This document shows positions 13,884 to 35,388 of a DNA stretch of 64,000 nucleotides, piece by piece. Positions within the stretch are counted from its first letter, which is position 1. Each line of letters opens with the position of its first letter. Source of the DNA: Actinobacteria bacterium IMCC25003 (GTDB lineage: Bacteria; Actinomycetota; Actinomycetes; Nanopelagicales; Nanopelagicaceae); assembly GCA_002284855.1 (NCBI GenBank), contig CP015603.1, positions 372,001-436,000 of the forward strand. The letters run 5' to 3'. The notes under the pieces were generated by a model that saw only the letters and a list, made by a program, of their open reading frames with translations, did no database searches and had not been told where the DNA came from. The position numbers and the translations under genes were made by a program.

Positions 13884-14729
13884 TTAGAAAGAGAGCGCGA
13901 GTGCAAAGGTTAGGCCGAAGTGGAGCTGAAGTTGGCCCGTTCTGCCCAGAAGTGGGATGAGTTCTGCACCCTTTGCGCCTGCAAGGACTTCTCGTGCAAT
14001 GGCATAGGCCTGAGGCGCTGTTGCTAAGGTGAGAAGCGCTAACGGATGTCCAGTAAATACAGGAAAGATATAGGCAGAGATAAGAAGTAATACAAAGAAC
14101 TTACGTGAGTTCTTATCACCGAGTTTTACCGCAAGGGTCTGCTTTCCAACTAACTGATCGCCAGGAATATCGCGGATGTTGTTGATAGCAAGAAGTGCGC
14201 AAGAAAGTGATCCCATTGGGATGGATGCAGCGAATGCAGCAGCGGTAATGTGCAACGTCTGCACATAGTAAGTACCAACAGTTGCAACTACTCCAAAGAA
14301 TGTGAAGACAGAGAGTTCGCCGAATCCACGATAGCCGTAAGGGGTGTGGCCACCGGTGTAACCCCATGCAGCGAGAACAGAGGCGATACCAACAGTAAGA
14401 ATCCACCAAGAAGAGAGATAGGCCAGTGCCAATCCAGCTACGCAAGCAACAAGAAATGAAAGTTGCGCCGCACGCTTTACGGCAGCCGGCGATGCCAGGC
14501 CTGACGCAGTCAGACGAACTGGCCCAACTCGATTGTCATCAGTTCCGCGAATGCCGTCTGAGTAATCATTGGAGTAATTGACGGCAATTTGTAGTGCAAG
14601 ACTTACAACCAGAGCGAGCAGAGCTTGAAGTGGTTTCCACTCTTTTCCTGCAAGGACAGTAGCCACAACTACTGGAGCTACCGCTGCTGGAAGTGTGCGT
14701 GGACGGGCTCCCTGAATCCAAATATTAAT
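13884..14729 (-). CDS. menA: 1,4-dihydroxy-2-naphthoate polyprenyltransferase
   Basis: 281 residues if started at the rare codon ATT 14729-14727. MenA attaches the polyprenyl chain to DHNA in the membrane. The UbiA-family site NYSNDYSDGIRG (Asp-rich, Mg-prenyl diphosphate binding) is visible, with many membrane helices. The conserved leader GARPRTLPAAVAPV lies upstream of the first conventional start (GTG 14666) and in frame. Between the previous in-frame stop and that GTG there is no ATG, GTG, TTG or CTG. A Shine-Dalgarno GGAGG (14740-14736) sits six bases before ATT 14729. The start overlaps the menE stop. Confidence 0.9.
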   Translation of the reverse strand: MNIWIQGARPRTLPAAVAPVVVATVLAGKEWKPLQALLALVVSLALQIAVNYSNDYSDGIRGTDDNRVGPVRLTASGLASPAAVKRAAQLSFLVACVAGLALAYLSSWWILTVGIASVLAAWGYTGGHTPYGYRGFGELSVFTFFGVVATVGTYYVQTLHITAAAFAASIPMGSLSCALLAINNIRDIPGDQLVGKQTLAVKLGDKNSRKFFVLLLISAYIFPVFTGHPLALLTLATAPQAYAIAREVLAGAKGAELIPLLGRTGQLQLHFGLTFALALSF

Positions 14730-15819
14730 TGGGCGCCTCCATCAATAATTCGATCAACTTCTTGCGATCCACTTTACCAATTCCAATGAGTGGAAGTTCG
14801 GGGAGGTGGAGATAACCCTTTGGTTTGCTGAAATCGCCGAACTGTTCGCCGAGGTACTGCGCTACCTCTTCTTCGGATGGGAAACCATCGCCGGCAATGG
14901 CAACGTGAAGCGCATCGCCCCATTTGGAATCCTTTACCGCAAAGGCTGCAAAGGCTTTATGAGGAAAGTGAGTATGGAGTGAAGATTCAATTGCGCTCAA
15001 TGAGATGTTCTCTCCACCAGAGATGATCACATCGTCACTTCGACCTTCGACAATCAACTTCTCATTTTCAATGCGTCCAAAGTCTGAGGAGTGGAACCAG
15101 CCATCTTTACATTGTGTCTCCCAGAGCGCTTCAGCTCCGAGATATGTATGAGCAAGAACTGTTCCTTTGATTGCAATTCGATTTTCAGGAGTGATTGAGA
15201 TTGCTACTCCATCGAGCGGCACACCGTTATAGACGCAACCACCAGAAGTTTCAGTCATTCCATATGTCACGACAACGTTGATTCCAGCCTTCTCTGCCTG
15301 AAGATGGAGATCAGTGGTGAGCACAGCGCCACCAACGAGAACTGCTTTAGCGGCAGCGAGGTGTGCAAGAAGATGCTGATCCCCATTGAGCGCCTTAAAG
15401 AGTTGAGTTGGAACAATTGCAGTGAAGTCTGCGCGGGGATATTCGCCTTCGTGGTTTCGCAAATCAATCGGATTAGTTCCCAATTCAAGTGCGCGGATAA
15501 GAACGTTTATTCCTGCGATATGAGTAAGTGGAAGTAAGAGCGACCAAGAATTTCCAAAGACAGCTCCGAGCGCTTTATTTGATGCGCGAGCTGATGAGAT
15601 CAGAGCAGATGCAGAGAGAGCCACATCTTTTGAAAGTCCAGAGCTTCCGGTTGTCGAGACAACAACGCTTATTCGTGCAGGGACTTGTGTGACCGAGGCG
15701 TGGCCAAACGCGAGAGCCGGTCCATCAGAGACTAAGGCCTTGGCGATACGAGCCATCGATTCGCTGACTGTCCATTCGGGATCTGCCGTGCGAAGTTCTC
15801 GTTGTGCGTTCTGCTCCAT
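14725..15819 (-). CDS. menE: o-Succinylbenzoate-CoA ligase
   Basis: 364 residues, compact for an ANL adenylating enzyme. The P-loop-like motif VSTTGSSGLSKDVALS is near residue 54; later motifs are VTYGMTETSGG near 205, a hinge/GRSDDVIISGGENIS block near 265 and the catalytic Lys region GKVDRKKLIE near the end. MenE activates o-succinylbenzoate to its CoA thioester. It is divergent from menB, 41 bases away, and overlaps menA by five bases under the ATT start. TAGCCT lies nine bases before its ATG and may be the -10. Confidence 0.92.
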   Translation of the reverse strand: MEQNAQRELRTADPEWTVSESMARIAKALVSDGPALAFGHASVTQVPARISVVVSTTGSSGLSKDVALSASALISSARASNKALGAVFGNSWSLLLPLTHIAGINVLIRALELGTNPIDLRNHEGEYPRADFTAIVPTQLFKALNGDQHLLAHLAAAKAVLVGGAVLTTDLHLQAEKAGINVVVTYGMTETSGGCVYNGVPLDGVAISITPENRIAIKGTVLAHTYLGAEALWETQCKDGWFHSSDFGRIENEKLIVEGRSDDVIISGGENISLSAIESSLHTHFPHKAFAAFAVKDSKWGDALHVAIAGDGFPSEEEVAQYLGEQFGDFSKPKGYLHLPELPLIGIGKVDRKKLIELLMEAPN

Positions 15820-29043: not shown

Positions 29044-30269
29044 CAACAGCACAGCTACTTGGACAAGATCCAGGTTGGCTCATCGCAGTAAAGGCTGTCA
29101 TGGTCTTTGCTATCTGCGTACTTTCGACGTTGATGGCTGTCTGGACTGAACGTCGCGTCCTTGCCAAGATGCAGCTTCGTACTGGCCCTAACCGCGTTGG
29201 CCCAGCAGGACTTCTTCAATCACTCTCCGACGGCGTAAAGCTTGCTCTTAAGGAAGACATCATTCCGGCAGCTGCCGATAAGGTCGTTTTCATCATCGCT
29301 CCCATCATCGCTACAGCGATGTGCTTCATGTCTTTCGCTGTTATTCCAATGACCGGAGTTGTAAATCTCTTTGGTCGTAAGACAGCTCTTCAGCTCACAG
29401 ATCTTCCAGTCGGCGTTCTCTACATTCTCGCTGTCACATCAATTGGCGTATATGGCGTAGTCCTTGCAGGATGGTCATCAGGATCTACCTACCCACTTCT
29501 TGGTGGTCTGCGTTCCAGCGCTCAAGTAATTTCCTATGAAGTAGCGATGGGGCTCTCACTCGTTGCAGTCTTTATCTACGCAGGTTCTATGTCGACTGCA
29601 GACATTGTCGGTTCACAACATCAACACCTATGGAACGCAATCGTTCTCTTTCCATCATTTGTGATCTATGTGATTTCAATGGTGGGAGAGACAAACCGCG
29701 CTCCGTTCGATTTAGCTGAAGCTGAAGGCGAACTCGTTGGTGGATTCCACACCGAATATTCATCTCTGAAATTTGCACTCTTCTTCCTCGCTGAATACGT
29801 CAACATCATCGCAGTTTCAGCGCTTGCATCGACCCTCTTCCTTGGCGGATGGCATGCACTTCCTGGTCTTGGCTTCACAGAGCAGTGGCTCGGTGGCTGG
29901 TTCACACTGATCTGGTTCTTCGCAAAGGTGAACTTCTTCTTCTTTATCTTTATGTGGCTCCGTGGATCACTTCCACGCCTTCGCTACGACCAATTTATGA
30001 AGTTCGGCTGGAAAGTCTTGATCCCAGTCTCACTTATCTGGATTCTGATTGTTGCTTCATTACGCGTTCTTCAGCAAGAAGGCGCTCCACGTTCAGCAAT
30101 CCTCGCATTTGCAGCTGGCGTCGTCATTATCGTGATGGCAATCAGCTCACTTGTAGAACGCAATAAAGAGAAGGTCCGCAGCGCAGATCTTCCTGAGGGT
30201 GAAGCTCCAAACTTCCCAGTTCCATCTCTTCCTAATGTGCAATCGATCAACGTCTCAGGGGGCAAGTAA
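29040..30269 (+). CDS. nuoH: NADH-quinone oxidoreductase subunit H
   Basis: 409 residues, eight membrane helices. Conserved [20 protein letters not shown] near 45 and the Glu-rich quinone-channel loop [19 protein letters not shown] near 220. It anchors the peripheral arm and contributes the quinone entry tunnel. The C-terminus extends about 40 polar residues beyond the last helix. Confidence 0.96.
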
Positions 30270-33874: not shown

Positions 33875-35388
33875 ACGCGCTAACAAGCATGATGTTGCTT
33901 CCGCTCCTAGGTTCACTCCTTGTTGCGGTTATTCCAAGCGATCAGACTCTTCGCATTAAGCAGGCTGCGCTAGGAACTACCTTGTTAGTCGCTATTTCCG
34001 GAGTCATGGCTTGGTTTAAGTTTGATTCAGCAAATACCTCTTTCCAATTCGTTCAGATTGCACAATGGATTCCATCATTTGGAATCAACTACGCAGTTGG
34101 CGTCGATGGTCTCGCGCTCGTTCTGATTCTGATGTCAGTACTTTTGGCGCCAGTCGTGGTTCTAGCAGGGTGGAATGAATCTGAAGGCGGACGTTGGTCT
34201 GCCAAGGTCTTCTACATTCTCATCCTTGTTCTCGAAACAATGATGATCGGTGTATTCGCAGCGACAGATGTCTTCTTGTTCTACGTATTCTTCGAAGCAA
34301 TGTTGATCCCTGTCTACTTCCTTATCGGTGGTTACGGCAGCGGAGAACGCGCAGCAGCAGCCGTAAAGTTCTTGCTGTATAGCCTCTTTGGTGGCCTCTT
34401 GATGCTCGCCTCAATCATTGGCCTCTATGTCATCTCTGGAACTCACGGTGGCCATACCTTTGATATCGGGCAACTCTCCGAACTCCACAAGTTCATGAGC
34501 CCTACGACGCAGAACCTTCTCTTCCTTGGATTCTTTATCGCCTTTGCAATCAAGGCTCCAGTGTGGCCACTTCATACATGGCTTCCAGATGCTGCTGCGG
34601 CGGCAACACCAGGAACTTCAGTTCTCCTCCTTGGCGTACTCGACAAGGTTGGAACATTCGGAATGATCCGCTTCTGTCTCACACTCTTCCCAGATGCTTC
34701 AAAGACTTTCACACCAGTGATCTTGGTCTTTGCTGTCATCTCTATCTTGTACGGCGCATTCCTTGCAATTGGCGCCCGCGACATCAAGCGTTTGATTGCA
34801 TACACATCAATCTCTCACTTCGGTTTTATCACCATGGGAATCTTTGCAATGACTACACAAGGTCATAGCGGTGCAACTCTCTACATGTTTAACCACGGAT
34901 TCTCGACTGCAGCACTCTTCCTCGTTGCAGGATGGATGATTTCTCGCCGCGGCTCTTCCACAATCGCAGATTTCGGCGGATTGCAACGCGTGACCCCAGT
35001 GATGGCATGGTCATTCTTTATCGCTGGAATGTCATCTCTGGCACTTCCTGGTTTGTCCAGCTTTGTCAGCGAATTCCTTGTTCTTGTTGGTACATACACT
35101 CGCTACCCAGTTGCTGCAGTGATTGCAACATTTGGAATTGTTCTTGCAGCTCTCTATATCTTGATTCCAGTTCAGAAGGCTCTCCATGGCCCAACGACTC
35201 CGGGCAATGAAAATCTTCCAGATCTCAACCTGCGCGAAAAGATTGCGATTGCGCCTGTCATTGCAGTCATTGTTGCTTTGGGCTTCTACCCAGCACCGCT
35301 GCTCAACGTTATTAACCCAGCTTCAGCACATGTGCTGGAAGTTCAAGGTTTCACAGATCCAGTTCCATCAGAGAGCGCAGGCAAGTAA
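33871..35388 (+). CDS. nuoM: NADH-quinone oxidoreductase subunit M
   Basis: 505 residues, fourteen helices, antiporter-like. [20 protein letters not shown] near 140 bears the proton-channel Glu, and [18 protein letters not shown] near 228 bears the Lys. [17 protein letters not shown] near 310 matches the ND4 pattern. Overlaps nuoL by four bases and abuts nuoN. Confidence 0.96.

Follow-up and report, generated by a model that had tools for sequence, protein, structure and literature searches.

A putative AUU start codon of menA that shares a base with the menE stop codon in a clade of Candidatus Planktophila

Where does translation of menA begin in a genome whose menA frame offers no ATG, GTG, TTG or CTG at the conserved N-terminus of the protein? 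The gene lies on the minus strand of the window (the whole 64,000-nucleotide stretch that was analysed, positions 372,001 to 436,000 of contig CP015603.1 from Actinobacteria bacterium IMCC25003), where it follows menE. The comparisons described below make it very probable that menA in one clade of Planktophila is translated from AUU, with a strong Shine-Dalgarno sequence (SD) beside the menE stop codon. As the argument is based on conservation, initiation at AUU is something that we infer.

The menE-menA junction

The features of the locus are as follows.

13884..14729, minus strand: menA, 1,4-dihydroxy-2-naphthoate polyprenyltransferase, 281 codons from ATT plus the stop
14725..15819, minus strand: menE, o-succinylbenzoate--CoA ligase, the upstream neighbour of menA
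14727..14729, minus strand: predicted menA start ATT, kept in 24 of 24 clade loci
14725..14727, minus strand: menE stop TAA, with T 14727 doubling as third base of the menA start
14736..14740, minus strand: GGAGG, Shine-Dalgarno sequence of menA, within menE (GAG codon 14739-14737), with a spacer of 6 nt
14664..14666, minus strand: GTG, the first ATG, GTG or TTG in the menA frame, not accepted as start codon

Upstream, the menA frame is closed by an in-frame TGA at 14744-14742 (minus strand), which is followed by WRRPINIWIQGARPRTLPAAVAPVV; the codons after this TGA read TGG AGG CGC CCA ATT AAT ATT TGG ATT CAG GGA GCC CGT. The initial annotation had stated that the frame contains no ATG, GTG, TTG or CTG from there to GTG 14666, which is codon 22 when counted from ATT, and this was confirmed. 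Its description of ATT 14729, with GGAGG six bases upstream and an overlap with the menE stop, was found to be accurate as well, and the same arrangement recurs throughout the clade. The start and the stop together occupy the whole of ATTAA, so that the overlap amounts to 5 nt (-5; 14729-14725). A 16S-type end containing CCTCC is present in the genome. The predicted RNA fold at the menE-menA junction has nothing unusual about it (z 0.11).

Profile searches identify the protein encoded from ATT onwards as a complete MenA. It matches NF004751 with 369.4 bits (curated cut-off 264, E 1.5e-110) and TIGR00751 with 258.4 bits (curated cut-off 102.15, E 8.4e-77), in both cases over the full length, and the UbiA domain PF01040 is matched too. 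For MenE, the best NCBIfam models, NF005877 and TIGR01923, each score under their curated cut-offs, and the AMP-binding domain PF00501 matches above its cut-off. The menE-menA stretch has a 100% match in a single-contig genome of 1.354 Mb (G000).

Conservation of the junction among relatives

MenA was found in 191 of the 201 family genomes searched and in 126 of the 135 genus genomes, the other nine giving no match. The start region was inspected in 124 of the 126 MenA-positive genus genomes, G204 and G288 being excluded because their MenA matches stop short of the N-terminus. These genomes provided 126 loci, two each coming from G263 (ATT) and G284 (NTG). Within one Ca. Planktophila clade, GGAGG-N6-ATTAA is present at every one of the 24 loci from 23 genomes; the clade includes Candidatus Planktophila versatilis NZ_CP016774.1 (family Ca. 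Nanopelagicaceae), and its genomes are those whose MenA is most similar (68-100% identity). The start regions of the 24 loci all differ from each other, and the loci do not represent independent events. Sixteen named clade records (L051-L066) apparently duplicate contigs of genomes already counted and were not added.

Each of the other 102 genus loci has an ATG, GTG or TTG available at the menA start. One of them, with ATG and a TGATG junction (G289), was a late addition and stands outside all counts of 101. The readable starts of these 101 loci are ATG in 84, TTG in nine and GTG in eight. When the codon at the position of ATT 14729 is compared among close relatives, it is ATT in every clade locus, always with GGAGG six bases upstream, and an aligned ATG, TTG or GTG in 87 of the 101 other loci; the start at ATT proposed in the initial annotation is thus borne out by conservation. 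In 14 of the 101 the aligned codon is none of these three and an NTG lies a few codons upstream; the nearest upstream NTG was taken as the start in these loci, some of which (e.g. L180) permit another NTG. Among 73 further loci outside the clade, with 67 different start regions, none has ATT at that codon. The GARPRTLP leader, claimed to be conserved in frame, indeed shows few changes across the genus and outgroup loci.

The ATT genomes appear to have a single origin, because a tree of an rpoB segment (18 genomes of 30 requested, 19 of which matched) places ten ATT genomes on one side of a branch and eight NTG genomes on the other with support of 100/100. A second tree, built from infC and the region downstream of it for 28 of 30 genomes, contains 14 ATT and 14 NTG genomes, the ATT branch having support of 81/76. 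None of the genomes examined showed a reversion of ATT. There are few credible ATT starts, and here the change maps to a single branch and has been kept in 23 genomes.

The SD follows the same division. GGAGG is present at 24 of 24 ATT loci versus one of the 101 other genus loci, and the mean SD pairing is -9.6 kcal/mol at the ATT loci versus -5.9 kcal/mol at the others, where three of the 101 NTG loci reach the pairing strength of the weakest ATT locus. The menA of this clade combines a better SD than that of the rest of the genus with the one overlap geometry that was thought to be ruled out. As the SD lies within menE, its codons can be compared with those of the surrounding gene. In the 22 of 24 loci that were aligned (two are 261 bases), 17 columns of menE stay within one two-fold codon class, and the third base is invariant in three. 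One of these is the GAG inside GGAGG, which is GAG in 22 of 22 although GAA beats GAG by 341 to 176; another is the last menE codon (AAT or CAT), which supplies the AT of the menA start. The third T of ATT is fixed by the menE stop anyway, so its invariance alone proves nothing. Isoleucine codon 3 serves as an internal control: it is ATT in 12 loci and ATC in 12, and codon 1 is ATT in 24. Codon 5 is ATT in 19 clade loci, ATC in three, ATA in one and GTT in one.

Two side observations concern the records themselves. Three MAGs labelled as Streptomycetaceae or Bifidobacterium breve (L053, L054, L061) carry the menA of the Planktophila ATT clade, and their names look wrong. The MAG G263 holds two different clade menE-menA junctions (L043, L212), perhaps reflecting two strains binned together.

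Other readings of the menA start

Single-base errors often give rise to odd start codons, and a sequencing or assembly error at a true G, which would make the codon ATG, must be considered for that reason. Against it, the identical ATT recurs in 23 genomes and 24 loci, each locus with a surrounding sequence of its own, and the loci come from complete genomes, MAGs and the single-cell genome SCGC AAA278-O22 (L052); moreover, an ATG at 14729 would also abolish the menE stop. It might also be supposed that menA starts at GTG 14666, the first in-frame NTG of this genome, or at another NTG downstream or upstream, ATT being an ordinary codon or untranslated. An NTG (CTG included) does lie upstream in eight of the 24 loci, but at differing positions 1-19 codons away, and in the other 16, this genome among them, it is missing. 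The first downstream ATG, GTG or TTG lies anywhere between codon 13 and codon 161 in the 22 clade loci of sufficient length; in the closest relative, G016, it is codon 161, and a TTG is found eight codons upstream. As far as the sequences themselves tell, no NTG near the menA start is conserved in the clade. A downstream start would lose GARPRTLP, a segment that matches the MenA profiles and changes little across the genus and outgroup loci, and the placement of the SD suits ATT only. Because ATT and its SD are conserved and no NTG is conserved elsewhere, both readings are very unlikely, a start at an NTG having a slight chance of being correct and a sequencing error practically none. An annotation restricted to NTG codons would misplace the start of MenA, and would do so differently in each genome.

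Two further possibilities leave the ATT in place and deny it the role of start codon. The menA frame is +1 relative to menE and an SD-like element stands ahead of the stop, so that ribosomes slipping by +1 at the end of menE could produce a MenE-MenA fusion with no separate initiation. The codons before the stop vary, however (CCC AAT, TCA CAT, ACC CAT, AAT CAT, TCG AAT), with no constant slippery motif among them, and in most other Planktophila loci an NTG start overlaps menE by -8, -4 or -1. At SD-stimulated +1 sites, of which RF2 is an example, a closer SD is required, and the 6-nt spacer suits initiation. Slippage is accordingly improbable. Initiation could instead take place at isoleucine codon 3 or 5, since both are also ATT in this genome; but codon 3 is ATC in half of the clade loci, codon 5 varies, and the two lie 12 and 18 nt from GGAGG, so that this reading, too, has little to recommend it. 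Initiation at ATT 14729 itself remains the preferred explanation.

The arrangement does not seem to be a general habit of the genome. The pattern GGAGGN{5,8}ATTRA occurs four times versus nine times for a backward-pattern control, and only the menA match joins two long frames. The window was also scanned against G073 for genes whose conservation extends above their first NTG. Of 61 conserved, nearly non-overlapping frames with a G073 counterpart, shadow frames among them, 12 were flagged, and nine of the 11 besides menA have ATG, GTG or TTG. The frames at 29220-29438 and 34162-34410 are without these codons, but they look like shadows of longer frames on the opposite strand. Further non-NTG starts may exist among the other frames of the window.

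Overlap geometry and a possible mode of initiation

With the nearest upstream NTG taken as the start in the 14 loci that lack an aligned one, a rule on which these tallies depend, the distance from the menE stop to the menA start in the 101 other genus loci is -8 in 72, -4 in 12 and -1 in four, and a gap separates the genes in 13. The -5 overlap is found in all clade loci and in none of the 101. In a survey of 2,661,236 gene pairs, -4 overlaps outnumber -5 overlaps by more than 1,000 to one, and the latter are seemingly ruled out, as start codons end in G and stop codons begin with T; the same source points out that ATT could permit them as ATTGA, ATTAG or ATTAA (PMC10666635). The ATTAA of menA is one of the geometries named there. 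Where that source treats -5 as a possibility that is not separated from annotation error, menA presents one instance conserved in 23 genomes (PMC10666635). The locus is such a -5 case, and an annotation error is hardly likely, since the overlap is conserved together with its SD. AUU starts as such are already known; what is new here is an AUU start fixed in a -5 overlap of start and stop.

This geometry might explain why the codon has stayed as it is. A T-to-G change in ATT turns the start into ATG, but the menE stop becomes a Glu codon and menE is extended by 27-62 codons (53 in this genome), as read in the 22 loci of sufficient length. One-step reversion to ATG is therefore blocked, and it would first need a new menE stop upstream; the loss of the menE stop would thus keep the weak start in place. 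An NTG start was presumably converted into ATT when the menE stop took over the third base of the start codon. On the shortest path, a single G-to-T change would turn ATGAATAA, the -8 form commonest in the genus, into ATTAATAA and so shift the menE stop upstream by three bases; the second TAA would have decayed later, codon 3 now being ATT or ATC. This path is tentative, because G198 and G232, which are sister lineages in the infC tree, have overlaps of -4 that lie in the other phase. In six further loci (L013, L015, L016, L132, L133, L214) the menA start lies one codon upstream (ATGGCTAA, -8 overlap), with the menE TAA at the same position as in the ATT clade. Such changes of start codon are exceptional: PMC5622118, which reconstructed the evolution of start codons, inferred a switch to AUU for one of 61,358 ancestral AUG starts and for one of 5,080 GUG starts.

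By combining these observations it is possible to outline how menA may be initiated. Ribosomes that end translation of menE would stay at the SD or bind to it again, or new ribosomes would bind to GGAGG, and would then use initiator tRNA to start translation at the adjoining AUU. The geometry fits a coupling of menE and menA by termination and reinitiation. According to a value cited in PMC10666635, AUU reaches about 0.3% of the efficiency of AUG in E. coli; in S. aureus it reaches about 10% (cvfC1; PMC13009471). Because AUU is this weak in laboratory tests, coupling or a low demand for MenA must be assumed. The weakness of AUU might be offset by the strong SD together with coupling; that stronger SDs offset poor starts is a known trend (PMC5622118), and strong SDs occur at other non-NTG starts (PMC13009471).

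The rarity of ATT starts, stressed in the initial annotation, stands, whereas its treatment of infC as the known case does not: E. coli pcnB and S. aureus cvfC1 also have AUU starts, and ccpN has AUA (PMC13009471). As in menA, the non-canonical starts of S. aureus are conserved and have extended SDs; unlike menA, pcnB, cvfC1 and ccpN are supported by experiment, and the account of them in PMC13009471 describes no sharing of bases between start and stop. The gene for IF3, infC, starts with ATT in E. coli and with ATC in Streptomyces (PMC5472188). It resembles menA in that a non-NTG start is chosen with an SD, and in this genus infC itself apparently starts with ATC or GTC. It differs in that its own product regulates it, whereas menA has a metabolic function, comes second after menE, and has a start that overlaps a stop codon. 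A parallel within the actinobacteria is Streptomyces sigR, whose non-NTG start is likewise conserved across the genus (GTC in 32 of 34, GTT in two) and has a strong ribosome-binding site. The weak starts of sigR and infC, like the AUU of S. aureus cvfC1 (PMC13009471), are repressed by IF3, which PMC5472188 shows for sigR; the sigR codon, however, is GTC, and no base shared with an upstream stop is described for it there. A search of the open-licence PubMed Central literature found, among the matches listed, no earlier report of an ATT start of Planktophila menA.

IF3 rejects non-NTG starts, and the output of MenA would be sensitive to it; IF3 control of menA is a prediction of this analysis. 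Going further, we tentatively suggest, while rating it as rather less probable than not, that the start is held in a suboptimal state by the overlapping stop. The -5 overlap would have arisen once, would have been compensated by a perfect SD, and would have persisted throughout the clade as single-step reversion kills the upstream stop, with IF3-dependent prenylation in menaquinone synthesis as a side effect in a widespread freshwater lineage. The menA junction offers a natural test of how an unfavourable start becomes fixed, compensated and trapped.

IF3 (PF00707) was found in 28 of the 30 genomes searched. The infC start in the genus is apparently ATC in 25 of the 27 readable cases and GTC in two, which suggests that the customary site of IF3 control is present in the organism. 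A changed IF3 is one conceivable cause of the ATT start, and in the alignment one column (142 of the compared part) separates the ATT from the NTG genomes. The two apparent GTC starts of infC (L219 and L243, in G040 and G115) use the same codon as that reported for Streptomyces sigR.
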